This document shows, in pieces, positions 9,485 to 46,687 of a stretch of 64,000 bases of DNA (the first letter of the stretch is position 1; every line of letters starts with the position of its first letter). The stretch comes from Malachius bipustulatus (taxonomy: Eukaryota; Arthropoda; Insecta; Coleoptera; Melyridae). The notes beneath the pieces were generated by a model. That model had not been told where the DNA came from. It ran no database searches and saw only the letters and a list, made by a program, of their open reading frames with translations. The translations under genes and the position numbers were made by a program. The stretch covers positions 37,826,210-37,890,209 of the forward strand of contig OU342633.1 of the NCBI GenBank assembly GCA_910589415.1. The letters run 5' to 3'.

Positions 9485-10690
9485 AGGCTGCGCGCCAAAA
9501 ATTCAATCAAAGGGACAGTTTTATTTTTCACTGCGCGAAATTGAGCTTTGTCGCTATGAGAATGAGCACTTTTTGTCAAGTCGAGAGCTGAGACAAAAAC
9601 TTATTCGAGAGCCCTATAATTTCGCGCTCGAGATACATACAACATGTTTAGACAGCTTTACTGAAACTCCTTGCGTCATTTTTATGATTTTTATTTCTAT
9701 TTTCCCGCTTATTTCAATAAAGCTGACTAAAATAGTATATTATGCAACGAGCTTATAATGAAAGCTATTAATACGTGAGTATGATGGTTAAGATACGAGC
9801 CGTAGGCGAGTGTCTTAACCATCATAAGAGCGTATTAATAGCCATTATCTGCGAGTTCCATACACTATTTTTTCTACGACCCTTTTTTTATTTCATAGAA
9901 AAGATGAAAAAATTATATATTTTAACAATCACCCGTGTACAATTGCGGATCATTGAGGTTAAGATAGGTTGCTATTTGTTTACGCATATTACCAAATTTT
10001 CTCTTCGTCGCTAAGATTATTCTGCTGAGACATGTTTTAGTATCAAGTTTAAAGGGCACTACTCACTACTGCGTAATTTTTATTATGCGAAGTTCGAATT
10101 CCGAATTTTACGCTTTGATTTTCAGAAATAATTTTAATAACATTGACAGCCATTAATTACGATATTGTTTACCTGCGCAACGCGGGTCGCAGCGTTGCCG
10201 CTTTGAATACTATCACGGAGCGCTACGAATGATATAATACTTTATCTTCCCTTCTTTTACACGATATACCTACTTATCAAATTAATTAAGGTAACATAAA
10301 ATCTTGATAAATTTTCTTTGAATGTTACTTATGTTCTAAATTAAATAAACGTTCAGAATTTTTTTTTTCGGAAATACTCAACTTATATCACGAGGCAATT
10401 TTTGTCGTGAGTATGACAACTCTGTGACTTCGGTTGCTTTGCCGACCCGATTGTGAGCGAAAAGGAACCGATTCGATTGCAAATGCTTCTCTGCCATTGG
10501 ATAACTTGACCAGTGCTTTAATGAAAATTTGTATCTTAATGAGACCCATTAAAGCACTGGTGATTCATATTTAATATGCATATTAAAGGTTGGGAGTAGA
10601 AAAAATGTTTTATGAATCTCGGCTCTCGCCTCGACAAACAAAAAACAAAAAAGCTCTCATTCTCAAGCGCCAAAATTGAATTTGGCGCAC
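9485..10690. repeat. Imperfect inverted repeat flanking copy B of the 880-bp repeat
   Basis: Left segment GCGCGCCAAAAATTCAATC (about 9488-9510) and GAGAATGAGCACTTTTTGTC (about 9560) are matched in reverse by AATTGAATTTGGCGCAC and AAAAAGCTCTCATTCTC at 10640-10692. The arms are short and diverged, with copy B of the 880-bp repeat between them. This suggests an older fold-back or transposon into which copy B inserted. Confidence 0.45.
9731..10605 (+). repeat. Structured ~880-bp repeat, copy B
   Basis: Near-identical to copy A from AATAGTATATTATGCAACGA to GGTTGGGAGTAGAAAAAA, with the same terminal hairpin and right-end palindrome (here perfect, TTTAATATGCATATTAAA). The hairpin core reads GATACGAGCCGTAGGCGAGT, the orientation shared with copy C and opposite to copy A. 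Small deletions relative to A include the loss of a few bases around 9985 and 10180. Confidence 0.75.
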
Positions 10691-12685: not shown

Positions 12686-13985
12686 TTATTTATTTATTTA
12701 TTTTTTATTTTATTTATCTACATCCACCCAACAGCACATGCCGTACAAAGGGTGTGAATAACTGCTGAGTTACATAGAATTTCAGCTCTACAAATAAACA
12801 TACAATATAATACAAAAAAGTAAATGCCAAGGTAAAAAATAAAATTGTAAAAAATCATGTAAGAAGATATACATCAAACAGAATGAACTGCGAGATTTGG
12901 CAAATACGCGGCAGCAAATTCTGGTCAGACTGAGTCCAAGCTTAAAAAATATCTTTTAATCTGTTGAGCATTGCAAAAGAAAACATCAAGGCTGTCAGCA
13001 TGCTGATTAGCACAGTCACACATTCGATGCAGTGGAGAGAAGACAAGAATGTTAGTCCTCGGGGTTCTCACCCTCAAGAACTGTTGCCGCCTAAGAGCAA
13101 CCTGAGGAACATTAAGGGAGATTTGGGACAGGATGAAAGGAGAATCGATATGTCCATTTAACAGTCCCCAAAGAAAGCGCACAAACATATACGCACGCCT
13201 GTCCTCCAAACTTCTAAAATCAAATTCTATCAGAAGTTCAGACTCAGAGTAGCCCTGTACAGGATATGAGCCCGTCCTCTTACGATATAGGAACTTTAAA
13301 AAACGACGCTGCACGCGATCCAGGTTGATAAGGTGACATTTGTAACCAGGAGACCAAATCACACTGCCATACTCCAGTCTAGGTAAGACAATAGCTCGAA
13401 AGAGAGTTATGAGGGTAAGAATGTTTCCAAAATCTATTGAATTGCGAATAATAAAGCCTAGCAATCTAAATGCAGAGGTGGCTGCATAGTCAATGTGTTT
13501 GCTGAATGAGAGCTTGGGATCAAATATTACACCAAGATCCATGAATTCCGTAACCTTCTTAACAGGGTGTCCATCAATCACACACAGTGTATGAAAACTG
13601 GGTCAGAGTATGTTTAAGACTGAAAGACATGGTATAGCATTTGGAGGTATTAAGAGGAAGTAAATTTTTATTGCACCAAATGTTAATACGATCGATGGAA
13701 CGTTGAAGTCTTAAACAATCGTCTAATGAATGAATCTTACAAAAGATCTTCAAATCGTCAGCATATAATAGGTGATCGACCTCAATACCCTCAACAATGT
13801 CATTTATAAATAAATTGAAAAAGATTGGACCCAATTTAGAACCCTGAAAGACACCAGAAGTAACAGGGTATTCAGCGGAGTTGGAACCACCGTATAGGAC
13901 ACATATTGACGTCTGTGAGCGAAGTAATTAGAGAGAAAATCTAAATAATATAATCAAAATAACGCAAGCTGAACGTCGAAAGTAG
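12686..13985 (-). pseudogene. LINE 3' end: reverse transcriptase C-terminal half, frameshifted
   Basis: Two overlapping minus-strand frames (13834 to 13574, then 13581 to 12925) carry GVFQGSKLGPIFFNLFIND (upstream of the first frame start), HLLYADDLKIF (catalytic YADD), LGVIFDPKLSFSKHI, a PRLEYGSVIWSP block and RVQRRFLKFLYRK, the usual order in CR1/Daphne-like non-LTR retrotransposons. A frameshift near 13575 splits the ORF and another lies near 13920. The tail after the stop ends in TTTATTTATTTATT read on plus (an AAAT-type 3' repeat). The element is 5'-truncated at about 13985. Confidence 0.8.
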
Positions 13986-14040: not shown

Positions 14041-15057
14041 ATTTCTTATATTGAATATATCGATGATGTCGCTGATGTGTTCAGGGTTAAGCACCTGCTA
14101 TACGCTGACGACATGAAAATATATACGCAGATTCGCTCTATGGCAGATGCTCTCCTGTTGCAGGAGGATTTGGGGAGATTCTCCGAATGGTGCACACGTA
14201 ATGGAATGGATCTGAATGTTTCCAAATGTACCGTGGTCACCTACACTCGTAACAAAACACCTTTTTTGTATCCTCACGAGATAAATACATCCCCTATTCC
14301 TCGTACAAATCAAGTAACTGATCTCGGGGTTACATTTACCTCCTCACTGTCGTTTAAACCACATATTGAACATATGACTTCGAGAGCTCTTAAATCCCTC
14401 GGATTTATTATCCATAACTCCAGAAAGTTTTCCAACTACAATACTATGGTCACTCTATTTAACTCATGGGTTCGACCAATGCTTGAATACTGTTCTATTG
14501 TATGGTCTCCTGCTACCCTCGGTTCAATCGGAACCGTATACTTAGGAAGTTTTTAAAATACCTCTCCTTTCGTGTAGATGGTAGCTATCCAGAGATCGGA
14601 TATCAGGAAAGTTTATTGCTTCAGAGATTCGGTCAAACCAGTCTTGAAGAGCGACGTAACACTCTTGCCCTCATATTTCTCTTCAAGCTTATTAATGGCA
14701 GTGTCGATTGCCCTAATTTACTCTCTTGGATAAGCCTTAAAATACCAAGACTTGGAGCACGGCACCCCAACACATTTTGGCTGCCGATTCCACGAACTTG
14801 TGTTCTAATTACTTCTGCCCTACACCAACTCTGTAACAACTACGCCCGCGTTCAGGGTTCTCTGGATATATTTCATACCAGCGTTAGTGAAATCAAACAT
14901 TTCTGTAAAGCTCTAGATTCATCCGAATCTTATTAGCTTTGTACCTCCTGTACATACATACTGTATTTATCTGTTATAATTTAACTATTGTATTTGTTCT
15001 CACCTATGTAAACTTTTCCCATCTTAATTTGGCCTTTTGGCTGTATGATGGTGTATC

Positions 15058-17642: not shown

Positions 17643-18138
17643 TGTTGTTTGCATAGAACATTCGAGCTTTCTGAAAATTTTAAGTGCGGCTTATACCAAT
17701 TCGGTATAATTTTCGAACTTATGATTTTCTGGCAATTTTTTTGAACCATGCCGAAAAAAGCAATGACGAAAAATGACCCGTGCCAGAAATCTTTCTTTTG
17801 GAAGGTCGAGGTATTTGATTTTGATTATACTTGTTATAAAAGTTGAGTAAAACAAAGGATTTTGATTGCCTATTTTCGATTGCACTAAATTGGCTGCCTT
17901 GAAGATCAGGTAAGTTATTAAAATTTGGAAACGGGACGTCTTATGAAGGAGGCAGAGATCTTTTAACGACGTCTTTTTTTCACTTAACACTATGTATATT
18001 GCCAAAAAAAAAGAGTCATAATAATATTTCCTGAAAACCGTATGCACATATCTTATTTGAGGATAAGAGACTTTTTAAAACATATTATTAATCTAACTCT
18101 ACCACTGATTAAAGCTCCCCACATCTTTTTTCTAACCC

Positions 18139-18391
18139 AGTATAAAGTAAGTGCGTACCGTGGTGTAGTGGATAGCGCGTTTGTCCGCCAGCCGGGTAGA
18201 CCATGGTTTCGAACCTCACCAGCAGCAAACAAAACTATAAGGTCGGGATCCACCCAACGGCAAACCACCGCATGGTACTTTGTCCTCTCAAAAAAAGAAG
18301 GTCCCATACGATAGCTCGCGCACCACGGACATATGCGAGAGGTAGCGTACGCCCAATTGTGGATATGGCATATAAGTAGAAGTATAAAGTA
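18139..18391 (+). mobile_element. tRNA-derived SINE with 11-bp target duplication
   Basis: The head carries TGGTGTAGTGGATAGCGC (A box) and GGTTTCGAACCTC (B box), about 40 bases apart, as in tRNA-derived SINEs. The body continues with GGTCGGGATCCACCCAACGG and ends near 18380. The insertion is framed by a perfect direct repeat AGTATAAAGTA at 18139-18149 and 18381-18391. The matching stretch of duplication unit 2 (TTAGAATAAAGCAGTTCATA near 39510) lacks the element, giving an empty site. Length without duplication is about 231 bp. Confidence 0.85.
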
Positions 18392-18825
18392 GTGCATGAT
18401 AATACTTGCTAGAAAACAGAGATGTGACTTCAAGGTTGAAGCCTAAAATGCGCGCGTTGTTTTCCGAATTAACGTTAAATTGACCAGTGACTCTACACAA
18501 TATAGTGGTGACAACTAATAATAGATTGACGCTTTCTGTCTCTTTTCTATACAGGGTGTATCTTTATTAATGCGAACAAATTTAAATACACATTCTTTAG
18601 TCTTGACCTCATGACCTAGTGACCCTTTAATCTAAGTGAACAGAGTACAGAAATTTTTCACATAAGTACAAAATGTGGCGCTTCTCTCGTCTCGTCACTT
18701 GGCGCCTCTTGTGTTAGCCTTCTTTAGTTTTACATTTTATATTACCTACAGAAGAGAGTCACAGGCCACAGGCAATACAATAATTGAATTAACTACAAAA
18801 CTAGAGATACCTACATGTAGAAGGT

Positions 18826-21800
18826 TTACTTTGATATTTTCAACAGTATCGCAAAATAGGAATATGCGCCTTTATAGATCTGAAAAAAATTATATCAATT
18901 AATATTTTACTGACGAGTGTTATAATTGAATTTCTTTTACCTCAAGAAGTGAAAACAATGAGAGCAATATCATATCACCTGCTTGTAGAGCTAACGGTTT
19001 TTCTGAAGCAACCAACATTGCCAAGACCAATTTTTTGTTCCTTTCGCTCAAGTTGTACCATTTTATGTTGTAAATTGTGTTCCTCAACTTGTTGCCCTAA
19101 AATGTCAAAGAGCTGTTTATTTATTACAAATGCTTAGAGACCGTAAGAAGTTCAAATATGTTTTGAAAATTATTTTTTGTATACAGCTGGCACCTTTTTG
19201 GTTTATTTTCAAACACTTTATATTTCAAATCAAAGTAGTTATTGAATTAGACTTGGAATGGAGAAGCAACACTCCAATTGCTATGATATGAAATGTTTAA
19301 AAAAAACCTTTTACCCACTCGTCGCTCAGTTGGTACTTAATGCTTATTGCCGTGAATTTTCGCAAAGCATACCGCACAAATACATTGTACACACAAAACG
19401 AGCTCACTCATTCTCAAAAACTCGCATCACTATTCTATTCGTTATACAGGGTGGCCCAACGAAAACGTACCAGACTAATAACTTGGGAAGTGAAAATGAG
19501 CGCGAAAAACGCCGAAACATGTCAATTTTGTTATTGAGGTATCTCCAGGTAAGGTAACAAATTTACCCATCCATCTTAATCATCTTAATCTTCTTTGCAC
19601 GCGTAGTGATAGGAAATAGACATGAAGCGATACATCATTTGGAAGCTACTTGAATTCCCTTTACAAGAATGGGTTTCGCTTGAATGTTACAAGGCGAATC
19701 GATGAAAAAGAGGTCTACTTCATAAACACTTCTTTTTTTTTGGAAAGAAGCAAACAGATTTGTTTTAATACAATGTCACACCTCACAAGCTACCATGATA
19801 GTAACCAGTGAAGTGCGACATTTTAATAAAAACTACCTATTCTCTCCGCATATATCCGAAGAAAAGGAAGCAATAATAATTGTTAAGCAAACGTGTTTTA
19901 TCGAGTCGTCCTTTATCTAATATTTTTTTAAAATCCAAAAACCGATACATCGTTGTAAACAGAATTCAAGTAGCTTTTAAATAAAGTATCACTCGATATC
20001 TGTTCAATATGATGACAAGCGAGGGGGTAACCACCCCTGCCGAGGGGACGAATTTGGATTATTAAATTTGTTACCTAAAGATGTCCTTTTCAATAACAAA
20101 ATTGACATATTTTGACGTTTTTTGTATACATCTTCAGTTTCAAAGTTATTAGGCCTATTTATTTTCGTTTGACCATCCTTTAGGTATGAGATCCGTTCAT
20201 TGTTGAGTAGGAGAGATCCCTGCAATTGTGCTATATAATTGTTGGACTGTTAAAAAATATTTCCATCTACAGCCCATACAGATTTCCCGTAAAACCGTAT
20301 AGTCCCTCGCCTGCATCTTGGCTCTGTTAAAGTGCCTGTACACCGGGTGGAAGCCTATAAAAAAACACCGTTCGTGTGAGAATAGACTCCAGCTGATCCC
20401 TAGCATTTCCCGTTTCTGCATTGAACTACCAACCTTAAAGGCAAGGGTACTATGAAAACACCATATTATGTCACTTGGACAGCAGAGAAAACTTTTCAAG
20501 ATGCTTTTCCCGAGGGAGTAAACCCTTAATTAAAATCTTACGCCCGCAAGAAAATCGTAGAAACCGTATGAATTTGCTTGAGTCCCAGGAAGATCACAAA
20601 TAAATCATTTTCGCATTTTACCAATAATTAATAATTATGTTTTTGTAATTTTTCTTTAATAATGGTAAAGAAGAGTTTCTCTAATTTACTAGAGACTCTA
20701 AGTACGTTTTGGTACCTATATTAGGTTCCTATTTATTATGTAGGTAATTAGGTATACAATGTGTCCCAGATTCGCGTCTCTATATATACAGGGATCTCAG
20801 CTCCTATTACACTTACAGCAAAGGTTAAATAGGGAAAGTTTTAGGGGAAACTTTGTGCATTCGATAACCGGTTTCAGATTTACGATCGGTCAATTGGTTT
20901 TGGAAATGTCGGCCAAAAACCGAAAATGGCGGATTTTGTTTTTCGCAAATAAGTCCGAAACGGTTAATTTGACAGCTGTCAAAATGTGACATTATCAGGA
21001 CACTTTTTTAAGACGAATAAGATGACAGGTCTCAATTTTGTTTTGCTATTCGGCAACCCGCCTCAACTTTCGTTTTTCTTATGACCGCCATGTTGAATTT
21101 TTCCCTTTTTGAAGTCAATTTATTTTTCTGATTACTACACTAACGCCCGTATTCACAAACGATAATTTCCTAAATAATTACGTAATCAATTATCCCCATC
21201 TCATTCTATTGCAAAAAAACTGCATATCTCCATCTCACTCATTTAAATAATTACGTAATTATTTAGGAAATTATCGTTTGTGAATACGAGCATAAGAGTC
21301 ATAATTTTTTTTTTAAATCCAATATGGCGTCCATACGAAGAAAAGATAAGAACTAACGATTTTTCGCCATCTTAAAATGCTAGAGACTCGAAAATTGTTT
21401 TTGTATTCCTTGTTGAAAAGTGTCCTAACAATTAATATGGCGAAAAATCGATATCTACCTATTTTTTCTTCTTATGGACGCCATATTGGATTTTTTTAAA
21501 TATTATAACTCATATGCCCGTATTCACAAACGATAATTTCCTAAATAATTACGTAATTAATTAAATGAGTGAGATGGAGATATGCAGTTTTTTTGCAATA
21601 GAGTGAGATGCGTATAACTGATTACGTAATTATTTAGGAAATTATCGTTTGTGAATACGGGCAATAGTGTTATACATCTTAGTAATCAGAAAAATAAATT
21701 GCGTTCAAAAAGGTAAAAATCCAACATGGCGGTCATAAGAAAAACGAAAGTTGAAGCGGGTTGCGGAATAACAAAAGACGATTGAGACCTGTCATACACG

Positions 21801-24036
21801 CTATCTTATGCGTCTTAAAAAAGTGTCCCGATAATGTCACATTTTGACAGCTGTCAAATTAACCGTTTCGGACTTACTTGCGAAAAACAAAATCCGCCAT
21901 TTTCGGTTTTTGGCCGATATTTCCAAAACCAATTGACCGATCGTAAATCTGAAACCGGTTATCGAATGCACAAAGTTTCTCCTAAAACTTTCCCCATTTT
22001 AACCTTTGCTGCAAGTGTAATAGGAGCCGAGATTCCTGTATAGAGACGCGAATCTGGGACACATATTGTACGTATACTTACTTCATTTATGGATATTTGA
22101 CATATGCTTTCCAAAGCCGATAAGCTTATAATCCAACCAAGAAAATTAGTTATTGACTGAAAGTTAGGATCCTGAAAAAGAATTTACACAAATTGAAATA
22201 TTAAAATGTAATAATTCAAGTTAATTATTAGGTATATGTTTTTATTCACAATAATGATCAACAAATTTTTCGATGTTGAAATTATAAAATATCTTTAATG
22301 TTCTCTTCAATATTCTCTTATAAGTGATCATAAGAACATGATCCTTATATGTTTTTGCTATTAAATACACTTAAATCGTAGATAAAAATCAAATTGATAC
22401 TTACCTCAATTATGTAAATAGCAAAAAATGCTAGCAAAAGTCCAGCAAAGTAATAATGCACCAACATCATATACTTCAAATCCATATTTATAACGGTAAA
22501 TCTTCTGCAAAAAAGGCTGTTAAAATATAAAGGCATAAAGCATGTCTGTCATTGTTCTTGTAACTTCTACATCCTTTCGAATGCACCAAAAGATTTTCAT
22601 GGATATGACTTTTCACATAAGAATGATTGCAAGATCTGGACGTACAGAAGCTACCGTGCCTATCATGTCATTATTATGAATTTCATTTGTAAGCATAAGC
22701 GATGTAGTCGGTTTTTATTAATTTATTTCTTTATTTAAATAATTATTTTAATTAGGTAATTTTAAATTTACACATTGGCGAAGGAAGTTCTATTAAAGAA
22801 ATAGTATAGTATTTTTACACACTACTAATTTTACTCTAATAATAATTATTTATTCATTTATTATTTACTCATTCATTCATTTGCCCAACAGAACAAGTCC
22901 ACTTACAGGCAAACTCAAAGACGTTGAATACACAATTGAAAAAACCTTCTTGCGCATCAATCGCATAAATAGTGTATTTTTAAGCGATCCAATTTATGAA
23001 TATTTTCACCGCTTTTTAAATTGGCTTTCTGAAAATTTCCCTAGTCAGGTCATATTAGCGTAGTGGTTAACTGTGAAAATTGCATTTCACTTCGTTTGAA
23101 AACGTGCCTTAGAATGGATTTTTAAATTTAACAAAACCAAAATAAATGGTAAAATTGAACAATTTTGCCCCTTTTCCTTTGCCCGCCACTGGCTGACTTT
23201 ACCTAAAAAATACTATTTTTCACACTACCTTCAATAGAACTGAAAAAGTGAAAAGGGAGCTTTGAAAACTGAAAATTTGGAATTTTATAGGAATAAACAT
23301 AATTTAAAAATATTCAAATATCTCCGTTCATTAATCTTGAAAGGTGAAGCTACAGGAGCGTTTTTAAAATTTTAGAGAAATAAACCTCATGTAAAAAAAA
23401 TTCAAATAACTCCGCCATTTTTGTTATTTACTTCTTGAAATTTTTAAGGGCTAGAGGCTATTAGTATAGTTGCCTACTGTGAAAATTTCAATTTAATTCC
23501 TTCAAAAATGTGCTCATAAATTGTTAGAGAAATTTAGCGATTTTTACCCTTTTCCTACCCACGCCACTGGCTTATTAATAAAAGTAATGCAAATTTTATA
23601 ACATTATATCAAATTTCAATTAATTTTCCTCCAATCATGTTGATTTAGTTTCAAAGTTATTTTTCCATCTTACTCATACAGGGGTTCAAAAAAAAGCAAT
23701 TTTTCCAAAAATTCAAATGGCCGCCATTTTGAAACGGCTTGGCCGATTTTGCTCAAGTACAATACCAGACCAGTTTTTATAGATATCTTACTCCCACAAA
23801 AATTTCAGTCCCCTAGATTGAAAACTGCGACCTGAAATGAGATGACAAAAACGGGGTTTGGGGAATTTTGAAAGGACACCCTGTAGAAGTAACGCGACTT
23901 TAGGAATTTTTTTCAAAGAAAATCTAACGTCGTTCCAAAGCTTTACAAGGATCCAAAATTTCATTCACTAATCTTGAAACATAAAGCTACAGGAGCCTTT
24001 TGAAAATCGAAATTTCGCGATTTTGGAGAAATATAT

Positions 24037-24102
<66 letters not shown>

Positions 24103-27100
24103 CGTGGGCAGGTGAATTTTGGAAAACTACTTTTTCGTAATCTGGGGGTCATGATCGATGGACATTTGATGAGTTTGGGTGATTTTCGAAAAGTGATGTC
24201 GTCCTCAATAGTGTATTTTTTGTTAAAAAATACACTAATAACATAAAGTAAACCACATACTTCTCTGTATGTGAGGCGGGTTACTGGGGGAATTAAGTTT
24301 CTGTTTAACTTGCTTAATAACTCCATAGATTGTAGCTTTTTACTTAGCAGGGTTAATTTCCTGGTGCCTCGTCCATGTGCCAGATTTAGCTGTGCTTTTT
24401 ATTGTTCATCCAGTAGAACAAATGCATTGGTGAGGTCACCGATCAATGTTATATGTGAGCTTTTCAATGCAATATCTGCTATGTGTGATATTAATGCTGA
24501 TACTTTTGGCGTAATATTGGCCTGCATTGTTGCAAAGTATAATACCTAACTATACTGAAGTTTCAGAATAGTAGGCACTAAGTTCTCGGAAGTGGTCGTG
24601 ACGTATAAGCGCTCAGTTGGAGCATTCAGTGGCGGACGCAAAATATCAAAATAGGTTCAGACAATAATGAATTTATTGAGAAATATAATTGTAAACTTCC
24701 AAATAATATAGCATATAGTAAATAATATAGCATATAGCAAAAATAAAAATAGCAAAGAAAATAGGAAAAAAATAGTACCTTAGTCATCGTCAGAAGAAAA
24801 ATCGTCGGATGATGGACAACTATCCCGATCACCGTTATCGTTCAAGTTGATAATTAATGGCTCAACCGAAACATCAACTATTGTGTCTAGATCCCACATT
24901 CTGTCTTCTTCTTTTGTAGTATGTCGGATGCAGTTTCTCCATGTTTCAGCCGTCACATCTCCTATTGCAGTAGCTAGCAGGCGTTTCACTTCATCCATCT
25001 TGAAGGTCACGTTTTGTTTCGCCACTTGGTTTTTTATTTGAGCCCAAATAAGTTCTATAGGATTCAGTTCACAGTGGTAAGGAGGGAGGCGGTGTACAAT
25101 GATGTTGCACTCGCGAGCCAATTCGTCGACAGCATATCTCTTAAAATGAGGTATTTGTGCCCTTGCGATGTTTAATAGTTGCACTTTTAACATGTTGTCA
25201 TCAAATGGTATATTTCTTTGAGCCAGCCAGTTAATGATGTCACCTTTTCGCCATGCAGTTGTTGGCGATGGCTCCAATCGTCGACTATGGTAGGAAGCAT
25301 TGTCCATTACCACGACCGAATTTGGCTCAAGGCTTGGTAAAATTTTTAAAAACCAGCTTTCGAATTTTTCCGCATCCATTTCCTCATGGTAGTCACTAGT
25401 TTTCTTCGATTCGAAAAGTAGCAATCCGTTTTCCAAAAAACCCGAATCACTACCTATGTGAGTTATTATGAGCCTCCGCCCCTTGCCCGCTGGCGCTTTT
25501 AGTCCTGTGGAAAAACCTTCAAAAAAAGCTTGTCGACGGCTTGTTATTTCCAAATCTTGCCAAATTTTCGAAACAGTATGACCTTGATTCAGCCAAGTTT
25601 CGTCTAAGAAATATATTTTCTTCCCTTCACGACGATACTCTCGAATTTTTTGTAAATAATTTCTCCGCCACAAAATTATTTCTTCTCTTTCTATAAGAAG
25701 ACTTTTTCTCTGCCTTTTCATATGCCTTATGTTCATTTGTCTTAATGTCCGCAATAAGACACGTCGCGATATTTTCGGCATTGCGTCATCCGAATTGATT
25801 TCGGCAGCGATTGCTTTTAATGTTGGAATTTCATTTCGGAAAAAGAACGAATGAAATTTTCTCCGAACGGCGTATTTTATGTCATCATCAATGTCAATGC
25901 GTTTTCTCCCCCTTGTTTCAATATTTTCAGCTACCTTTTCTGTTCCGCCTTTGGACTCTTTGAAAGTTTTCAAGATTCGGTGTACACTCCTAGTTGACAC
26001 TTTGGTTAAATCACTACACAAAGCAACTACATCGTTTACCAACATACTTTGATTCCTTTCACGGAGTCCACAATACACGTTGTATATAATAGTTTTTTCT
26101 CCTGTAGATAAATTCGTACGACGACGTTTACTTTGGCTGCTCTCGCCTTCCATATTGCTCACAACTTTAAATTTAAACAGTATTTCACTTCGGCACTCAA
26201 AGAAGCTTGCTTCTTTCCCGTTTACACCACAGTGAGAACTGAGAAATAAGATTCAGACAGGAAATCTGATGAGCGACCCTTAAAGCAACCAAGCTATCCC
26301 CACTAATTATGCACTTTATTGTCGACCGGGTATGGGTTTTTCCGGGATGGTAATTCCGTAAATTTCTTATAGTTAAACTTTTTCTGTATCCTGGAACTCA
26401 GTTCATTCCCAAAACAGGAATCATTATTGTATTATTATTTTACCAAATAATTAACTAATAACTAATTATTAACAAATTAGTAAGATATTGATTTTTTATA
26501 GCTTGTATTTCTTAATTACTTCACAGATTGTCTATGAACAATATGAAATATTCAAAATTTTGTTGTTCCCGAGAGTCGAGAATCTTCTTCCCCCGGTAAT
26601 ATTAATTTTTCTTTTCTGACAACCAGAAAACAGAAAGAGAAAAATATACAAGTCCCGATCGACATCCAATAACAGCCCAAAACAAACAACTTTTCTTTTT
26701 GTTCAGGTTATTCCACTGCCGCGAATTCTTTTTCATTCATTTTCATGCGTTTTTTAATTTTTGTGATGCTTCAATAATTCAGCAAATATAAACATAAAAA
26801 TAAAATATTAAGGATTTAAAGGAGCGATAAATGTTATATTGCAGCCCCTCACGAAAATAGCATGAACGATACGCCACTGAATACGGAGCTGCCTTGGACG
26901 GACTGGCAGCATGCTCGATATATATCCATCTTACTTTACCTTACTGCAAGTTGGACCTGCTTATCCTTTGTACTTGTTGACACTGCTGTAATGTTGCCAT
27001 ATATTATATTTTAAGGGACCGAACCTCATTGAAATTCTACATCTTTTGCTATTAAATATCGATGTTGTGAAATTATTATAGCAGAAAAATTACTCAACAA

Positions 27101-30100
27101 ATAAAACACAGTATTTTTTATCCTACAACCATTTACCTGCATGTGAATGATAAAAATACAAAATGATAAAACACCAAGAATTAAAAGCTGGCAACAATGT
27201 GTTTACTTTAAGTCCGTAATATTTCTAAGAACTTAGTGCCTACTATTCTGAAACTTCAGTATAGTTATTTACGACTTAGTTGGGAGTAAACCTTTTGCAT
27301 TCTCCTCTACAAAGGCGGATTTCAATTCTCTGAAATAAGGGTAGAAACCTTTCTTCAGGTACCTGTTTATTACAACAAAACTGCTTGTTCACAGCATGTG
27401 TCTAAACTTGTAAATTATTGCTGTAGTGACGGGTTTATAATAATAATCATAAACTTTATTCCGATTTTATGTTCAACTTTGATGGCAAATTACTCAATTA
27501 TGGTTAAAGATATCGATTAACAAATTACTGTTTCTTATAGAAGAAACTTTTTTCTACAAGTGTATGAAAAATCATAGAGATGCGATTAGTATTTCGTTAT
27601 AAAATCTATGTCGAAAATCGAAAGTCGCATTTAATTAATTTTCCAAAAATGATTACATCATATTATAGTAGGTTTATTGTAATCCACGTATGTAAATTTT
27701 CATATAAAAATTTTAATTAGAAGTACCTTTTTTCGCGAGAATTCTATACGATGGGACACCCATACAGAGGGTCTCAGACTTAATTGACCAGACGATATCT
27801 CATATACTAGACAAGTTGAGATAATCGAACCGAATTTAACTGGATGTTATCAGAATTTTTAAAGCTCTAATGAACGAAAGTTCTAACGCATGAAAGCAAC
27901 CCCCACTTCAAGATCTCCTACCCTAAGTTACAGCCCTCACTCTTAAAAACATGAATAGCACCCTTTACGAAATGGGTGCCCGATCTGAAAAAAACGTTAT
28001 TCTTTTTATTTATGCTTAAAATACGATTTTATACATGACGTTTGATTTTGGCTGGCCCCTTACCGAACACCCTGTATTCAACCCGATGCAGTAGAAATGA
28101 TCTCGACCGTAAGTTAAGACCGCAAAAATATGTAATGTCATGATAACCGTGAATTGGTTTATTCGTAGAATTCTTAGATCCAATAGATGATGATCCATTT
28201 TCTTCACTTTAATTTGCCATGTTAACGCGTACGCGTGGTTCTGTTATTCTGCAATAACCCGGCTTGGTGTTTTCGTCTCCGCGCAACGCTTCAGGACTTG
28301 TTGGCCCTGCTATACGGGGTAACACTGTTACGATTTTCAGATTTACCGTCCCGTAAAAGAAGCAAACAACTATTGATTGTAAAGGAATTAATCTTTGTTT
28401 TTTGACTATTTCTGATCGTGCCTTCTTCGTCCCGTTCATTTCATGTACACACTGCGTTGAATTTACTGTTACAGTCTAATGCCCGTATTCACAAACGATA
28501 ATTTCCTAAATAATTACGTAATCAATTATACCCATCTCACTCTATTGCAAAAAAACTACATATCTCCATCTCGCTCATTTAATTAATTACGTAATTATTT
28601 ATGAAATTATCGTTTGTGAATACGGACATAAGAATCTAATTAATTGAGATTTGAGATCCTTTTCTTGTTTACGAAAACATGTACCAGCCCCTTGGTCTTG
28701 TTTGTATTTACCTATCCTAAAAATTATCGTTCACTTTTTTATTGAGGAATCATCAGAAAGGGAAGGAACGTGACAAACATTTAATCTAATTATGAATGAA
28801 CTAAATTCAACAAATTTTTTATTAATATCCTCTGTTAATTCGTCACCCGAAAATATTTTTCAAAACACAAAAATCTGAAAAATGTCACCTTCACCCATTT
28901 TTTGTGCCTAACACAGTCACTTCTTCATATCATTCTTAGATGAAAAATATATTCAGGGATGTTAACGAGAATTTTGACTTGTGCAGGTATGTGTACTTAT
29001 TTAAATAAATGCTAAATAATTTTTTATTCGGTGTGTCCCTAGATAGGTCCCAGGATAAAAAATTTTTATTGGAATTTTGGTTATTTTTTTTATTTGAAAA
29101 ATCAAGCATACTATGGAAATTAATAAAAAAAACAATTTTTCTGTAGGTAAAATGTAGAATCAACACTTAGGCTTCTATACCACATTGTAGAATCATAATC
29201 TATAATATTTTTTCATTTCTTCCGTGGTCATATTTCACAAATCAAAGATTTTTATTTTTGAGAAAGACTCAAGGACTGAATACGCGCAGTCGGCCGATGG
29301 TTCTGAAATTTGGTATAAAGGCCTAAACGTTCATTCTAAACAACTTTTTTGCTGTATTATTTGCCGCATAGAAGACACAGAAAGACACAGTTGCTCCACA
29401 GAAAAATGTTTTTTTGAAAATTTTCAAGGCATGTTTATTTGATATCTCAAAACTAAATTTATGTTAGAAATTAGTATTTTCAGGGGTACCTACTCCGAAA
29501 AATTAAAATAAAATCTAAAATTCCTAATCATTTACAAAAGTCGCTCCACCAATCCGGAGATAAAAAGATCACTATATAATTTTCCTGATGTAATAATGGA
29601 TTTTGTAATGTTGAAGGTATCTAACAATCTACTATAAAACTTCTAACAATTTTATTTTATTACATCATTTACCTACTTAGTCTAGTCCGGCAATATTCTC
29701 ATTATCATCCATTTATATTTTTTTCTTCATTCATAATAATAATATATAACATAGGTATAGTTACTTACTGCAGAGCAGCACCTTGTCTTGCTATGCATCT
29801 CGTTAAGAAAGAATAAACTTCAGTCTCTTCTGTTGGAAACTTCGTCTTGATTGCATGCCTCAAATTGACAATTTCGATAATCAATTGTTCCAAGCAGTAA
29901 AGCGTAAATATTACCAAGTTGATGAATAATAAGAAAGCAAAAAATAGTGAAGTGCACTGAATGAAAAGCAGGATTTGCTGTTGGGGAAACGTCTCATAAT
30001 CGAATGGCAAATAAATAGGCAGAACAAAGCCGCATGACTCGCCGATGGACACGCCTTGACTGGACCTCTTTTGACAGTTTTCCAAGTCCCATTTTTTGAT

Positions 30101-33100
30101 ACCCACTGATACAATAACCACCATGAGAAGACCCAATTTGATTAGTCTTAGTATTAATAAGTAATTGAGTTTATTACTGTCTGTTGTTCTTCTTACATAG
30201 TTTCGAAAATTTTTAACAACGACCTTCAAATTCGACATATACATGATAAGAATAATTGTGTGGCAGACGTAAACAAGTACAAGAGAAAGATCGAACATTA
30301 AAGCTGAACTACCATCTAAAAAAGATTACACAAATTAAAATTTTATATAGGTACCTTACATACATAAACACTTGTGTTGAAAAAGCTTCGAGACCCTTCA
30401 ATAAATCCTTTAATTATGAGTTTTGAAAAATATTATAAAATAGGTCAATTTTATAATTCAATTTACTTTCTATTGATGTAAAAAATATATATACAGGGTG
30501 CTACTTGACTCAGTAATAAAGACATTGTCTATTTTTTTAAATAGAATACGCTGTATATCATTGTATTTTCAATATTTTCTATTTTTAATTTTCAAAGTTT
30601 ATATGAAACACGGCTCAAGATATGGAAACATGTCCCTATTTTAACTTTTATCCCAGGATGTAAATGAAATTTTTATAGAGGGTGATGAAAATTATCAGAT
30701 TTTTCATCCCCTGTATACAAATTTCCTACCTACACCATAGTATAGTACATTAAAAGTTATTATTTTTCAAGTTCAGGGACTTTTTCAACACCCTGTATAA
30801 TCAGAATTGATACAGAAATGAAATGCTATTATTTTTCTACCAATGGGAACTCTGATATCGTATTATGGGATGGGTACAAAAATATCGTACCTGCGTGTTT
30901 ATTTAATTTCTTTTATTAAAAAATAGGATCATGCTTAACTGTATAGATGTTACTGTAAAACCCCGAAATTATTGCTATCGGTAAATACAGTCGGGAGGTT
31001 ACAAGAGGTATTTATTACCACAGAGTGTATAGAGTAGATAATGTAAATTACTAAAAGTAACAAAAATAAACAGTTTACGCAAAATGCTACATTAAAGAAA
31101 ATAGAACGAAGAAAACAGCAAATTCATTTGGTATTACATGACAAGCTCCCATGACATTTCGAGTTACAAAGCTTGTTTGAAGCTTTGCACATACATCTTT
31201 TCGTGGTACATTTTTGTGTGCAGTTACATCGCTGATATCCTTGCCCACCAGATAGGGACATCTGTCTTACAGCTCCTCTAACAGCTACTTCCTTCTGTAA
31301 TACATCTGAGAGGTATTAATAAAATTTTCTTAGCAGACAGTAAACTGGTTTCTTGTAAATAACTGTGTGATAGTTCCTGCAGTTGTGCCAAGACGATAGA
31401 ATTCTTCGTCTTGCACATCTAATATAACTGCTAATAACGTCCTTGGATCTGTTTTGGATCTGTCTACGTTGGGTATTTTTATTTTCACGGTTTGTCCTCG
31501 CTGCGCCTCAGGAAACTTTTTGTCGGATGTCATCTTCATTTTTTCGCTTGTTCCTGTAATGCGCAATGTGCTTCTTGTCATCTGGCAGGGTGGACTCATT
31601 TACTAATGAATGTGGAAGCATTAACGTTTCAGCTGTGTTTTCTTCTAGTACAGTACTATTGCGGCCTTCATCAATACATAATGTTTGGAGGTCGTCTTCG
31701 CTGTGAAGACTGGGAAGCAGGTTCGCTGGTATAATATGCATATCAAGGAGTTGATAAGCTATTTCTTCTGCCCGTTTAGAACGAAGAGATCGAATAACAA
31801 CGAACTTCGTTAGATGATCCTGATAAACCATGATGAACTTGAAATCCTTGTCCGGGTTGGATTGCATGTCGATTAAATCGATTTGACATTTAGAATTCAT
31901 TTCTCTTTGCAGTATAGGTTTACCGACAAGCCCGTTCTGCAGATGGCATTACTCACAAACAATATCGCACAAAAATAGTAAACAAAGTTTTCCTGTATAC
32001 CGGTAGATACGTACCTAGGTACGCAGCCATCTGCATAAATAATCAGCTGTTTTAAAGACCCAGTGAACATGCGTGAGAATGAGCATTTAAACCATTCCGA
32101 CATTTACCGATAGCAATGTGCACATCCTAGGATTTACCAAAAAATGGTAAATGCCCGAAATGCCATGTAACCGAACAACATTTCGGACATTTACGGTTCA
32201 GTTTTGGTAAATCCTAGGATGTACGCGTTAAACCTAGGTTTTGCCTAATTTCGGGGTTTTACAGTAACATAGATAATAATACCTACATCATATGGGCGCC
32301 ATACTGTGGCAGTTTTTATTCCTGCTTTTCCTGATTATGCCCAATCTAACATTTAGAAAACTATTTAAGAAACGATTGTTGACGAAAAAAAGAATGACAT
32401 ATAGTGTAAGACAGCATGCCATTCATTAATGTTGTGCTGTGAGTAGAGGTGGAAACTGTAGACAGTGCTTCGTTCTGCTTGGGACTCATCATCATGCATT
32501 TTAATTGTTTAATAAAAAATAGAGTTTGAAAAATAATCTAAATAAATTAAAAAGTCTATACGCCGTATAGTTAAAGGCATTATGGATGTACATAGTCATG
32601 TCCAAAACGTTATTATAGGCTGGATGATTTTCGAAGTTGCTGGCTGCTTGGTCGAGAAAGAGAGCCGTAGGCTCTGAATTGGATGTTCTCTTTCCAGGCT
32701 ATATCGCTCAACGAACAGAAACCTTCTCGATAATTGCGAAATTCATTGTTTCTTAGATGCCACTACAGTTAAATGAAAAAGACCAACACGCTCATTCAAT
32801 CAGGCTGGTTGGGAACAATTGCGAGATAACCGAGAATTGACAGGGCGTGTATATAAACTTAAATCTATAGTTTGTTATTGTTATTATTATTATAGTATAA
32901 TAATATGAAGTTGAATAAAATTTTTTAAATGGCACTTACGGTGCAGGAAATGAATTAAGTGTGCAAAAGCACCATAAAATGGCAAAGTGAAAGTTATAAA
33001 GCTCACTAGTGCCTTAAAATAAAAATATAAATTGATCTCGTCTTCTTGATCAGTTTTCGGCCACAAATAAAATATTTTCAAGTATTTTGTAATTTCATCA

Positions 33101-38000: not shown

Positions 38001-40109
38001 TCCTGTCTTTGGCATTAGATCAGTAATGAACATGAGCCTAGAACCCACGATTTCCTATTTGGTACATGTTTATATTTATATATGTGCAAACAACTACATA
38101 GGTAGGTACTTAAACAGTCAGAGCAGCTTAATCATTTATTTCATAATACTTTTTCTACAGCTTGTGTATGACTACAGTTTTACAATATAATCAAACATTG
38201 TTAAATATTGCTTATAATAACACCAAAAGAAATAGAGAAATAATTATTGAAGCAATAATTATTGTTTAAAAACAAAACAAACACAATATTGTGCTTTTCT
38301 CAATAAATGAGCTCCATGGTGATCAGCAAAACAAAGCCAAGTAAGCAGGTCTGGAGTCACGGACATAGCTGTTTCGGTCTTATTTAACCTCTTCAGCGTG
38401 ACACACCAAACCAGCATAGATGTGTGCTGCCGAATGTCAAAGACAAGGAGTTCGTCCGTCTTATACAAATCAGTGGATTTTTATTCCGTGACTTGCAGGA
38501 CATAGCGACATCTACCGTTAGCGGTAATAACTACCAAACAACTACCAGCTATCACCTTCGTGAGACATTACTCCTCGTGCAGTTTTATATGCTGTGAGGA
38601 TTTGGCAAGTCTCCGAGGCAGCGCTAGCCTACAGCCGGCAGCTCCCTTTACCATTTTCCCATGTGTATTAATAATACCTACAGTGGGTTTGGTGCCAAAA
38701 AAAAACATGTTTAAATAATATGCTCGTTATTCTGGTTCTAAGGGTATATTGTATACATATACGTATTTTGTAGATTTACCATGTATTTTTTTTGATATGG
38801 TAAGTTGATGACCCTAATAATTTACCAAATTTACCATGGTGAAACTCCTTTTTTTATTTCTTTGAGTGAGTTTCCTCACTCACGCATGAAACTGCTGACT
38901 GACTTTGGAACCAAATAGACTATGTTGTTACATTTTACATCCAAACTTTCAATAACATCTTTCTGAACGACATCACCACCAGAGGAGTGTGTCCACCAAA
39001 TCGATGTCGCGTTATGGTTCAGTAAACGAATTTGTTTCTTATCCAAACTTCTTTCTGAAATTTCTTAGCAATATACCTCAGTACAAATTCACGATAATTT
39101 TTGGAATTACGATTCCCTAACAATTTGCATGACGAAAAAACATGTCAACAATTCGGAATTCTGAATTCCTTTCTTTTGAAAGGTCAAGGTCTTTGATTAC
39201 TTATAAAGTTGACTAAAACAAAGGATTTTAATTGTCTATTTTCTATTGCACAAAACTGTCTTTCTTGAAGATCTGGTAAGTTATAAAAAACTGGGAACTT
39301 TTTTCTGAAAGAAGCCACATTTTTCAAACATTGTTGTTTGGAATCCAAAGTTGGTCAACGTCTTTGAGGCCCCAGAAAAATTTCCTTGTGAATTTTTCAC
39401 GTAAAAATTTCACGTTTTGAATATGCTTGGATCCTCTATCATTGTTCTCTAATTCTACCTCCTTATCTAACTCTACGACACATTAAAGCTCTTCATATAT
39501 TTTTTCTAACTTAGAATAAAGCAGTTCATAATAATAACACCTTAATCTAAGTGTGCACAATACAGAAATTATTCACACTAATATTGAATGTGCCGCTTCT
39601 AGTTCCTCTTGCGACTCCTCTTGTGTTATCTTTCTTTTTTATTTACATTTTATATTACTTGCAGAAGAGTCACAGGCAATACAGTAATAATTGAATTAGC
39701 TGTGAAATACCGTTTACGCAAAACCAAAGATACATCATGTAGAACGTTTACTTCAATATTTTCAACAGCATCGCAAAATAGGAATATGCACCTTTATAGA
39801 TCTATTCAAAAAAATTATATTAGTTAATATGATACTGATGAGTGTTATAATAATTGAATTCCTTTTACCTCAAGAAGTGAAAACAATGAGAGCAATATCA
39901 TATCGCCTGCTTGTAGAGCTAACGGTTTTTCTGAAGCTACCAACATTGCTAAGACCAATTTTTTGTTCCTTTCGCTCAAGTTGTACCATTTTATGTTGTA
40001 AATTGTATTCCTCAACTTGTTGCCCTAAAAAGTCAATCAAATTTTTAAAAAACAACAAAAAATGCGGGTAGATATTTCATGTATTTCAAATGGTTAATAG
40101 AGAATTACT

Positions 40110-40905
40110 GACAGAGAAATACTGACAGACAGTCAAGCAGCCATAAAAACGCTGATCTCTCCTGTCATCAGCTATAAAATGGCATGTAATTACCTACAAA
40201 AACTCAACAAACTAAGCAAAGAAAACAAAATTTACCTCAAATGGATACCAGGTCACACTGGGATTGAGAAAACGAACGTGCCCCCTCGTTGACAATAAAA
40301 GGAGCAGCAGCTGCCTTCATAGGACCAGAGCCATTCAGTGGCCGTGAAGACACGTTCTTAAAAGCAGAACTCCAAAAGGAAGAAGGTAAACTGAGAGAAG
40401 TCCATTGGGAAAACCTCTCAGGCTTGAGGCAATCCAAAGAGCTCCTCGGAACTTTAACCGAGAAAGGTCAAGAAAACTCTTGACCCTCAACAAAGGAAGC
40501 CTCAGAATGCTAACGGGATTCCTAACAGGTCATTGCAAGCTCAATGAATACCTAAAGAAACTTGTCATAGAAAAAGATGGCAAAAACGAGACGCCTCGTC
40601 ACCTATTGATGAAGTGCGGACAACACCAGCTCAACGGGGGAGCTCTACCCAGCCTCGATCTCGTTCAAATCCTGAAATTCCTAAGGGAAACGGAATCATA
40701 GTGGCTGTTGCAATGAAAGGAATACACACCAGAGTAAAGAACACGAACAGCGTTCTATGTGAGCATAGACTCCAGTTGATCACTGGCATTTTTCGTTTCT
40801 GCATTGAACTACCAACCTTAGAGGCAAGAATACCTACTATGAAAGCACCATATTATATGGCATGGGCAACAGAGAAAACTTTGCGAGATGTTTTTCTCGA
40901 GTGAG
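40110..40905 (+). pseudogene. LINE RNase H and C-terminal relic, OR-2 intron 4
   Basis: Plus-strand frames give LTDSQAAIKTLISPVISYKM, KIYLKWIPGHTGIE (RNase H W-PGH-GI block), then KGAAAAFIGPEPFSG, LLTLNKGSLRMLTGFLTGHC, KLNEYLKKL, NETPRHLLMKC and ILKFLRETES. This is the order RNase H, GHC-LN-HL motif, ETP-HLL--C seen at the C-terminus of Jockey/R1-like LINEs. Frameshifts occur near 40275, 40440 and 40700. The downstream part 40760-40905 is also present in OR-1 intron 4. Confidence 0.75.
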
Positions 40906-41078
40906 TAAGCTCCAACTAAATTATTTTCGCATTACCTTACATTACATTACAGTTAGTAGGTATGTAGGTATTATACTTACTTCTATATATACTATATATA
41001 GTTATATTATATATATAGTATATTATATATACTATATTAAGTGTTAGACAGTTATACAGTTATAGATGCTTGATTTGG

Positions 41079-41530
41079 ATGTATGAAAGAGAAAACATTG
41101 AATCGCAAACTAATACGCACAACATAGATACAAGATTTGCCGACTACCCGAGAGCTCCATTCCTCCGTAGGTCTGGATATCAAAGATTTATGATATATTA
41201 CGGACCGAAATTGTTCAACTCACTGCAGCCTGAAATTAAAATCATAAAAAATAAAATAAAGTACAAAAAAAGTATACTTGGATATATATTCGCCAATTAC
41301 ACTCGAATAAATAACACATTTCAACAGTTATAGACATGTGTGATGAACTGTCAGTGGCTCGACTCTCTTCCTCACATCAAAATAAAGTCAGAAATTGTCA
41401 CTACAAAATAATATAGAATAAATTAAGACATTTCCCAAACACAAACTTTGTTTAGCTGGGAAATAAATAGTACTTGTTAAAATTATATTGTTGTGAATGA
41501 ATGAATTGCAATAAACAATAAACAATAAAC
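41079..41530 (+). pseudogene. LINE 3' end with (CAATAAA)n tail abutting OR-2 exon 4
   Basis: The plus frame NTHNIDTRFADYPRAPFLRR followed by FMIYYGPKLFNSLQPEIKII and a stop at 41333 resembles the C-terminus of CR1-like LINE ORF2 proteins (NTR...RS-F-YRGPKLYNSLP-EIK). About 150 bases of 3' UTR follow, ending AATGAATTGCAATAAACAAT with three AATAAAC units at 41511-41530. The tail ends exactly at the base next to OR-2 exon 4. A short AT-rich palindromic tract (40980-41040) precedes it. Confidence 0.65.
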
Positions 41531-41577
41531 TTCATTTATGGATAATTGACATATGCTCTCCAAAGCTGATAAGCTTA

Positions 41578-42429
41578 AGGCGGGTTCTCATTAGTCAACT
41601 AAATTGATCAATATAATTGATTCTATGCCATTGAAATAAAACAGATTAATATGAACATTCATTCAACGATATTGTTCAATAATATTGCGCTTCAATCAAA
41701 GTGAAAGGCGTTTCTACTTTTGGTTGATCAACGGAACTGATTCAATGAAACTGAACAGTGCTGGACTATGAGAACATGCTCTGTCAGTCACGTTGAATTG
41801 AGTTTTGAGGTTAAATTTTGTTCTCGTCGAAAATCAAACCAAACTGTAAATATTTGGTGTGAAAAATGTCCAATTTAAATGGAGGGATAACCATATGTCA
41901 AAGTTTCTTGGTTTTTGGGCACTCTGTACAGCGCACTCAGAGATGGAAAAGAATCTCCTGTAGCTAAATATCTTAAAACTACTTGTAATTTTAGTCTTGC
42001 TGGAAGAGCGTCTCTCAATAAAGTTTTTTTTTTCTATATGGCGATACTTTCTGTAAAAGTTCTTCAAATTTTTCTTCGCCCATTCTTAAATGGTTTTTAT
42101 ATGTAGGTATCCAAGTCATCTCTAGCCAATTCCACTAACAGTTTTACTGAAGCACCTTCATATCTCGTCTTAAGATCCATGGTCTCACCCACCAACGACG
42201 AGGTTTCCTCTTTTTCCTGTTTCTGATTACGTTTTTCAAGTACTCACACACAATACGAACTCCAGCACGAGCAATTTTCTTCTTTGCAGCCATTTTTAAA
42301 ATTGACGCTTTCTAGACTGAATATTCAACTTCCTTGAAATAATATGAACGAATTTCACATTGAAATCAATGCTCAATTGCATAGAATCAATGATATTGAT
42401 CAATGAAGTTGACTAATGAGAACCCGCCT
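41578..42429 (-). mobile_element. PIF/Harbinger element inserted in OR-2 exon 4
   Basis: Both ends begin AGGCGGGTTCTCATTAGTCA, and the inverted termini match with few differences for about 55 bases. It is flanked by TTA on each side (41575-41577, 42430-42432), the TWA-type 3-bp duplication of PIF/Harbinger. OR-1 exon 4 gives the uninterrupted site. On the minus strand decayed frames show RRWWVRPWILRR, NHLRMGEEKFEELL and LPARLKLQVVLRYLATGDSF followed by LSALYRVPK, the N-terminal half of a Harbinger nuclease. Stops, frameshifts and loss of the catalytic half make it non-autonomous. Confidence 0.88.
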
Positions 42430-43317
42430 TTATAAGCCAACCGACAAAATTCATTATTGATTGAAAGTTAGGATCCTGAAAAAAAATTTATATGAATTGA
42501 AATGTTAAATTCATATTAATTATTAGGTTTATATGTTTTTATTCACAATAATGATCAACAATTTTTCGATTTTAAAATTATAAAAGATCTTTACTCCTTG
42601 TATATTTTTGCAGTTACCGAAAGATTTTATAACAATATTGTAAATTTTAAGCGCTCTGATATGACGATTTTGGAAGAAAATTTGGTTCATTAATAAATAA
42701 ACGGAAATACTTTCAGAGTAAAACGAGTTAGGTACTCGTAAGATCAAAAGTATAGCTTGGCATATTCGATCATTTTCCAATAAAAAACCATCGATCGATG
42801 ATGAAGGTTTTCCACCTTAATGACTTGGTATTTCAGGTAAGTATTACGATATGGTATAATAGAAAATAATATCGACTAGATGCTTACCTCAACTAGGTAA
42901 ATAGCGAAAAACGCAAGCAAAAGTCCAGCAAAGTAATAATGCACCAACATCATGTACTTCAAGTCTACATTTATATTTGCAAATCTTCTGCAAAAGAGGT
43001 TGTTAAAATATAAAAATAAGCATTAAGTACATTTTTCTCTATAAAGCATTTATGTCATGTCCTTGGAACTTTCCCATCCTTTCGAACCTAAAGATTTTCA
43101 ATTGATACGACTTTTCTGCTAAGAAGATAACGTTTCACCAATCCAGAAGCAAGAGAGTTTACAATAATAATTTTCTTGATGTAGGTACCTCTCTATATGA
43201 ATTTTAATGTTTCTAACAAAAACGACTATAAAACTTACTCAAAATTTTGTGTTATTACATTATTTACCTACTTACTTATAGCCTAGTCCGACAATACTCT
43301 CATTAACATTCATTTAT

Positions 43318-43743
43318 ACAGGGTGTTTCAAAACATGTGTCGGAAAATGAAAAGAGTAATTCCTTGGACTTTCTGAGAAAAAAAGGTTCCATTAACAGGG
43401 ATCTAGTGATACTAGATGTCAAAAAAAATTATCAGTTCTTTCACGATATCTCAGGAACTGTTCGAGATATAAAACTGAATTTTTGTACACATCTTACTAT
43501 TGACAAAAGCTACTATTTTTTAATGCTAACTAAATTTTTTGCCAGAATATTTACGAAAACGGTAACGTTCTGAATTAAACATATCTGCTTTAATTTTACA
43601 GAAATCCATATAATTGAAGGAAAAGCTAATAAGAGAAAAAACACGCTATAGCGTACCTACTCATGTTCTTAGAAACTTTTTTCTTAGAATGAGGCAGGGA
43701 ATTTCATCTTTCATTTCTCTACACATGTTTTGAACCACCCTAC
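43318..43743. mobile_element. Fold-back element in OR-2 intron 2
   Basis: Left end TACAGGGTGTTTCAAAACAT, right end reverse-complemented TAGGGTGGTTCAAAACATGT; about 24 bases of terminal match and further mirrored words (AATGAAAAGAG, CTTTCATTT). OR-1 intron 2 has the unoccupied sequence CATCCATTTATATTTTTTTC near 29707, so the insertion followed the duplication. Confidence 0.75.
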
Positions 43744-44369
43744 ATATTTTTGTCTCTTTTCATAATATGTAATAAAGTAGGTACATAAGTAGTTACTTAC
43801 TGCAGAGCAGCACCTTGTCTTCCTATGCATGTCTTTAAGAACGAATAAACTTCTGCCTCTTCTGTTGGAAACTCCGTCTTGATTGCATGCCTTAAATTGG
43901 CAATTTCGATAATCAATTGTTCCAAGTAGTAAAGGATAAATACTACCAAGTTGATGAATAAGTAAAAAGAGAAAAACAGTGAAATGCACTGAAATAAAAT
44001 AATAATTTGCTGTATGGGAAACGTCTCATAATCGAAAGGCAAATAAATTGGCAGAACAAAGCCGCATGTCTCGCCGAGGAACTCCTCTTGACTGGACCTC
44101 TTCCGACAGTTTTCCAAATCCCACGTTTTGACGCTCACTGATCCAATAAGGAGCGTGATAAGCGCAATTTTGATTAGTCTTATTATTAATATGTAATTGA
44201 GTTTATTACTGTCTCTTGTTTTTCTTACATATTTTCGAAAATTTTTAACAACTATCTTCATATTCGACAAATACATGATAAGAATTATTGTGTGACAGAC
44301 GTATGCAAGTACAAGACAAAGATCGAACATTAAATATGAAGTATCATCTAAAAAAGATAGTTTAGTCAA

Positions 44370-46278: not shown

Positions 46279-46687
46279 TCTGTTAAATGGTGGTCGTAGG
46301 AAAAGTACTGTGTGTATCACGTGCGGAAAAGAAATTTCACACTCGTGTGAATTGTGTTCCGCACTTGTTTCACAATATACTATTATTGAATAGAAATCGT
46401 TATATTTTATACTTCAAAAATTATTTTTATGTATTAATTATTTGAGCCATGCACATTTCACGTTTCTTAAAATGAAACATACAACGGCTTTTCGGAATAT
46501 CTGTAAATAATCCGTTTCGAGAATATTTAAATTTGTAAGTTGAATAGGAAATTTAGAGACTTTTTTATTTTTGACAAGTAAATATGTGGGGAACTATTTA
46601 GTTGGTAGGACTACAATAGTATTGTAGTATTTTAGAGTTTTATGACCTCCCTTCTCCCTTAGTGTTAAAACTATGATAATATAATAG

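Follow-up and report, generated by a model that had tools for sequence, protein, structure and literature searches.

The 64,000-nucleotide stretch of Malachius bipustulatus DNA studied here (contig OU342633.1, positions 37,826,210 to 37,890,209; called the window below) holds a Sailor (DD82E) cut-and-paste transposon that is complete and probably autonomous, apparently caught during or just after a burst. We propose that its transposase probably binds the 34-bp ends through N-terminal helix-turn-helix domains and that a Mos1-like DDE catalytic domain (D184, D284, E367) would do the cutting. Insertion would take place at TA, preferably C-TA-G, with duplication of TA only. Since TA also forms the tips of the element, filled sites would then show TATA at either end, and this would have given rise to the published "4-bp TATA duplication". 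A helical insert that lengthens the spacing between the second aspartate and the glutamate may be an extra HeH/SAP-type DNA-binding module. For this explanation as a whole we estimate a probability of about 0.9. The element and its ends are as follows.

24553..27261, minus strand: Sailor (DD82E) element, 2709 bp with its own terminal TA at each tip, of which the core from CTGAAG to CTTCAG is 2705 bp; boundaries set by comparison with copies elsewhere and by the empty sites of other insertions
24551..24552: left TA of the target-site duplication, based on TA, not TATA, in the empty sites of other insertions and extended to the window copy
27262..27263: right TA of the target-site duplication, on the same basis
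24553..24586, plus strand: left terminal inverted repeat, 34 bp (TA and 32 bp), which in reverse complement gives exactly the right repeat
27228..27261, minus strand: right terminal inverted repeat, also 34 bp, the exact counterpart of the left one

In filled sites, duplication of TATA looks the same as duplication of TA next to an element with TA tips; empty sites tell the two apart. Forty copies, located by the 32-bp part of the repeat, were inspected, and this part is exact at both ends in all of them. In 39 of these copies the bases immediately flanking CTGAAG...CTTCAG are TATA at either end, and 420 ends in the genome have the exact repeat next to an exact TATA. The remaining copy (L056, G000:C1:16173722-16176436) has TATA on one side, GGTA on the other and a broken open reading frame (ORF); it has either a mutated flank or a recombined origin. 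The filled sites thus look as expected from the published description of Sailor, in which the target is TATA, four bases are duplicated and the element would span 24555-27259. According to the consulted sections of Shi et al. 2021 (PMC8533490), this four-base TATA duplication, screened manually, is the predominant one. We consider it very unlikely here, given the empty sites.

The flanks of first 40 and then 44 distinct insertion sites were joined computationally and compared against 177 kb of fetched sequence; the 44 sites correspond to 55 junction entries, as 11 were entered twice, and the GGTA site was left out. A scorable paralogue across the junction was found at four sites (L008, L010, L012, L052). 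At all four the TA join is best, and joins of 0, 1, 3, 4 or 6 bases score lower. The repeat family around L010 has 335 genome matches with both flanks within 8 bases, and among the about 100 listed, TA is present at the exact spot in all but two and TATA in none. For the L012 family there are 332 genome matches, and all but one of the about 100 listed read TA. A fifth cross-junction match, between L015 and its own left flank (49 bp, 78%), is unscored; it places TA on TA with a 3-base gap nearby.

At two sites the reading frame also requires TA. L059 lies in the endonuclease frame of a long interspersed nuclear element (LINE), where the TA join is open and an Exo_endo_phos match (E = 2.5e-4, below the curated cut-off) spans the junction; the TATA join breaks the frame. 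L054 lies in a copia pol frame, and its SH3 and RVT_2 domains share one frame only with the TA join. In the recombinase-like frame at L018 the frame is kept with TA, and the sole family match (E = 0.035) stops short of the junction. The empty sites suggest that the target duplication in the Sailor family studied is TA and that the terminal TA belongs to the element. Because the empty sites elsewhere read TA, we extend this to the window copy and take 24553-27261 as its span.

Several observations weigh against this assignment. A single Sailor family underlies it, and the empty-site calls at L008 and L052 rest on diverged paralogues; of those at L052, one reads AA and the other has a longer gap. 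The two exceptions in the L010 family (G000:C1:38488108 and G000:C1:44189659) read TACATA, a form which we take to resemble a Tc1-type excision footprint. The exception in the L012 family (G000:C1:13780763) reads TATA and could be a trace of Sailor excision or simple slippage. The junction pattern of the LINE at L059 has no match in the genome. At the coding site L045/046 the open frame is longer with TATA (179 against 103 codons), which favours the four-base reading, and its only homologue (55% identical) is matched by neither join, the TATA one being 3 nucleotides too long and the TA one 1. Over 53 entries the mean open frame across the joins hardly differs (77 codons for TA and 71 for TATA), and among the distinct sites with a frame of at least 75 codons the longer frame comes with TA in 10 cases and with TATA in 8. 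Most sites look non-coding, and we therefore rejected ORF length across the whole set of junctions as a criterion of general use. For the window's own insertion no paralogous empty site is present within the 64 kb, and the genome was not searched for one. Outside the duplication, C is the adjacent base in 24 of 35 ends, which gives the C-TA-G preference; 15 of 50 rows, reversed loci in which the script had overlooked the repeat, were dropped from this tally, and some of the 35 kept are the two ends of one insertion.

The sequence-only reading of the window had placed the ends further out, with perfect 38-bp inverted repeats starting with AC and TA duplications at 24547-24548 and 27266-27267. 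The letters are indeed there, at 24549-24586 and 27228-27265, flanked by TA, and the arms agree over 40 bases when this TA is included. We compared them with L001-L020, the 20 best genome matches, which include the window copy. The outermost two bases differ from the window on at least one side in 17 of the 19 other copies, and therefore these bases in the window are host DNA. AC/GT as in the window is found in the other two (L006 and L007), without the outer TA pair, and in no case among the 19 is the outer TA present at both ends. With the insertion removed the window target is the palindrome TAAC-TA-GTTA, and it is because of this palindrome that extra bases of the repeats match. The 38-bp repeats are thus hardly credible as element ends. 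The proposed duplication was right in kind, being TA, and only its coordinates have to move inwards.

Inside the element, an 11-base inverted pair, ATTCAGTGGCG and CGCCACTGAAT, was read by eye at 24624-24634 and 26872-26882. Its placement is asymmetric, and it is possible that these are accessory binding sites, or the pair may have arisen by chance.

The assignment to Sailor is supported by the transposase. According to PMC8533490, as far as its consulted sections go, Sailor is a monophyletic clade apart from Tc1/mariner, Gambol and pogo, with a spacing of DD78-111E (mostly DD82E) and the motifs I/VVYLDET, VIIMDNA and HCELNPIEL. In the window protein the spacing is 82 residues and the motifs are IYFLDET, VVVMDNA and HCELNPIEL, of which the first two differ from the published ones only by conservative changes. 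The DD82E lineage named in the sequence-only reading is therefore supported. The published sizes (element 1.38-6.98 kb, repeats mostly 23-57 bp, transposase 323-676 aa) also agree with those found here, i.e. a 2.7-kb element with repeats of 32-34 bp, a classic length, and a transposase of 457 aa. TATA is visible on both sides of filled sites, and the copy number is within the published range, which extends up to 341 copies.

The element differs from the published Sailor in three respects. The duplication is inferred to be TA, with a terminal TA borne by the element, and not TATA. After TATA the repeat begins with CT, whereas the first two bases are usually, not necessarily, GT and CC in the published families. 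Finally, at least 93 copies encode an identical protein here, compared with "more than 50 intact copies" in the two richest beetles of PMC8533490. We keep the element in Sailor because its transposase features and the visible TATA place it there, and read the disagreement on the four bases as an error in the published description, not as a reason to exclude the element. The words "empty" and "paralog" are absent from the main text of PMC8533490. Judged by titles, openings of abstracts and passages, no other paper listed in the literature searches deals with Sailor duplications; PMC10045372, PMC10379824 and PMC9777934 name Sailor in the sections consulted.

With DD34E Tc1 and Sleeping Beauty, and with DD34D mariner and Mos1, the element shares the RNase-H-like catalytic fold and the TA target. 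However, the 82 residues between the second aspartate and the glutamate, owing to an inserted helical segment, exceed the 34 of these elements and the 34-41 residues of Tc1/mariner in general. The motifs around the triad are also different, and the window element ends in TA. The sequence-only reading used the term "Tc1/mariner-type"; Sailor is classed beside Tc1/mariner and not inside it.

For at least one family, the result removes the TATA duplication, a main structural difference that sets Sailor apart from Tc1/mariner. We see an even chance that it applies to all Sailor, i.e. that all of them duplicate TA and carry their own terminal TA, that the published TATA is an artefact of filled sites and that the spacing reflects an HeH/SAP-type module in the RNase-H fold. 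If so, the "reduced number of target sites" argument, which is built on the TATA duplication, would be an artefact as well.

A protein search found 1077 homologues, of which 120 were listed. An organism is named for 22 of those listed, and 16 of the 22 are from beetles, which by itself would make a beetle the probable host. The closest among those listed are P0001, P0002 and P0003 (Leptinotarsa decemlineata), with 96%, 80% and 72% identity in the search and 96%, 81% and 75% in the alignment, where a portion of the catalytic domain is missing from P0003. In a tree built exclusively from 33 Sailor-like proteins, the window copy groups with P0001 and then with P0002 and Leptinotarsa (supports 100/99). 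The spacing between the second aspartate and the glutamate is 82 in 98 of the 120 homologues and 81, 83 or 86 in 17; the script did not find it in four and mis-measured it in one. Searches for phage, plasmid and viral relatives gave no match. Bacterial Sailors have been published; a contig profile scan for bacterial relatives, using alignment A1 (33 sequences and the window protein), gave 33 pattern stretches of which none was confirmed.

The features of the transposase are listed below; alignment A2 consists of 109 of the 120 listed homologues and the window protein.

24780..26153, minus strand: transposase-coding ORF from the ATG at 26153 through the stop (457 aa), identified by DDE_3 and homologues
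25602..25604, minus strand: codon of catalytic D184 (FLDETW), conserved throughout the 110 A2 sequences
25302..25304, minus strand: codon of catalytic D284 (VMDNAS), conserved throughout the 110 A2 sequences
25053..25055, minus strand: codon of catalytic E367 (LNPIEL), conserved throughout the 110 A2 sequences and aligned with the Sleeping Beauty NPIE glutamate
25953..26108, minus strand: N-terminal helices, residues 16-67, a putative helix-turn-helix DNA-binding region
25149..25256, minus strand: helical core of the spacing insert, residues 300-335, HeH/SAP-like by weak evidence

The ORF is uninterrupted, on the minus strand, as had been read from the sequence. The triad given there as D187, D287 and E370 is also correct, with numbers counted from a GTG three codons upstream; from the ATG it is D184, D284 and E367, with 99 and 82 residues between. 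The window transposase matches Pfam DDE_3 (E = 1.7e-13). The catalytic glutamate keeps its place in a sequence profile of 34 relatives, where the NPIE glutamate aligns with that of Sleeping Beauty (5cr4, E = 2e-4). Outside A2, the homologue P0115 has an alanine at the E367 position. A predicted model of the transposase matches the Mos1/SETMAR/Sleeping Beauty fold. A single-sequence search of the PDB gave one weak match only, to an unrelated protein (E = 0.63). Three N-terminal helices are predicted (17-33, 39-50 and 54-67), and HTH_29 is found in 32 of 110 relatives at E <= 1; the window protein itself has no HTH_29 match.

The long spacing appears to be due to a helical insert with a weak resemblance to HeH/SAP-type motifs. 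Its helices are predicted at 303-312 and 323-337, and the relatives P0028 and P0120 have sub-threshold HeH and Ish1 matches at the insert. Among the 110 members of A2, HeH is found in 6 and Ish1 in 7 at E <= 1. No HeH match reaches the curated cut-off of 28.9 bits (best 23.9, in P0028), and the window protein has none. The modelled insert has a weak fold match to T4 endonuclease VII, and a Foldseek search with the insert returned nothing at E <= 0.001. It may thus be an additional HeH/SAP-type DNA-binding module, and the family offers a way to ask what such a long insert does in the catalytic domain.

The young age of the copy, claimed from its intact ORF and repeats, is strongly borne out by the genome (544 Mb in 52 contigs). 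Repeat ends with at most 3 mismatches number 453 (230 and 223), and a reversed control pattern gives 0. From these ends we infer about 220 near-identical full-length copies. On contigs C1 and C2 all 48 listed pairs are full length (2686-2859 bp), and there are no short non-autonomous derivatives among them (about 100 of the 453 ends were listed). Three repeat ends, at G000:C1:84960314, G000:C1:84968118 and G000:C2:59028991, have no listed partner at the usual distance and possibly belong to truncated or interrupted copies.

To estimate divergence and intactness we used 20 of the first 27 repeat pairs on C1 in genome order (L051-L070). The seven omitted pairs were among the 40 best matches, so that the true divergence is, if anything, lower and the intact share higher than given here. 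The mean pairwise difference between these 20 copies and the window copy is 0.12%, with a maximum of 0.30%. The insect mutation rate is near 3e-9 per site per generation, and at this rate 0.12% corresponds to about 2e5 generations. In a genome search with the protein, 1795 candidates were found and 93 scored, and all 93 are 100% identical over 457 aa with no stop. Among the 40 inspected copies 29 of the 33 proteins of 455-458 aa are identical, and groups of 13 and 7 copies are identical over their whole length at different places.

Long identical stretches can also result from segmental duplication or assembly errors, which would mean that the copies did not arise by transposition. However, the flanks directly outside the repeats differ among the 40 inspected copies, and copies are present on many contigs in both orientations; this origin can practically be set aside. 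Alternatively, the element could be young but no longer active, silenced, or impaired at a step that escaped detection. The ORF is broken in 7 of the 20 sampled C1 copies (13 have one of 455-458 aa), which weighs against an autonomous family, and activity is judged from sequence. The identity of all 93 scored proteins and the two groups of identical copies argue otherwise, and we regard inactivity as unlikely. That the window element is active is plausible. If the reading extended to all Sailor is right, this burst family with its identical copies would be a naturally active Sailor; its at least 93 identical intact transposase genes make it a good candidate for one, and possibly for a tool in insect genetics.

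The window is AT-rich (28-38% GC per 2 kb) and contains tandem duplicated blocks at 17791-30347 and 39169-44411. The second block lacks about 6.9 kb of the first (22623-29547), the part in which the Sailor copy lies. Two minus-strand ORFs (29765-30325 and 43797-44411) have by eye the look of multi-helix, receptor-like membrane proteins, and no Pfam family is above the cut-off in them. A repeat of about 0.9 kb is present three times (7080-7993, 9731-10613 and 46678-47575; 93-95% identical); close to one of its ends there are short inverted matches. An open frame remnant at 14041-14556 (plus strand) matches a reverse transcriptase (RVT_1, 1.7e-7). Another at 12925-13602 (minus strand) has no Pfam match and is by eye similar to it.

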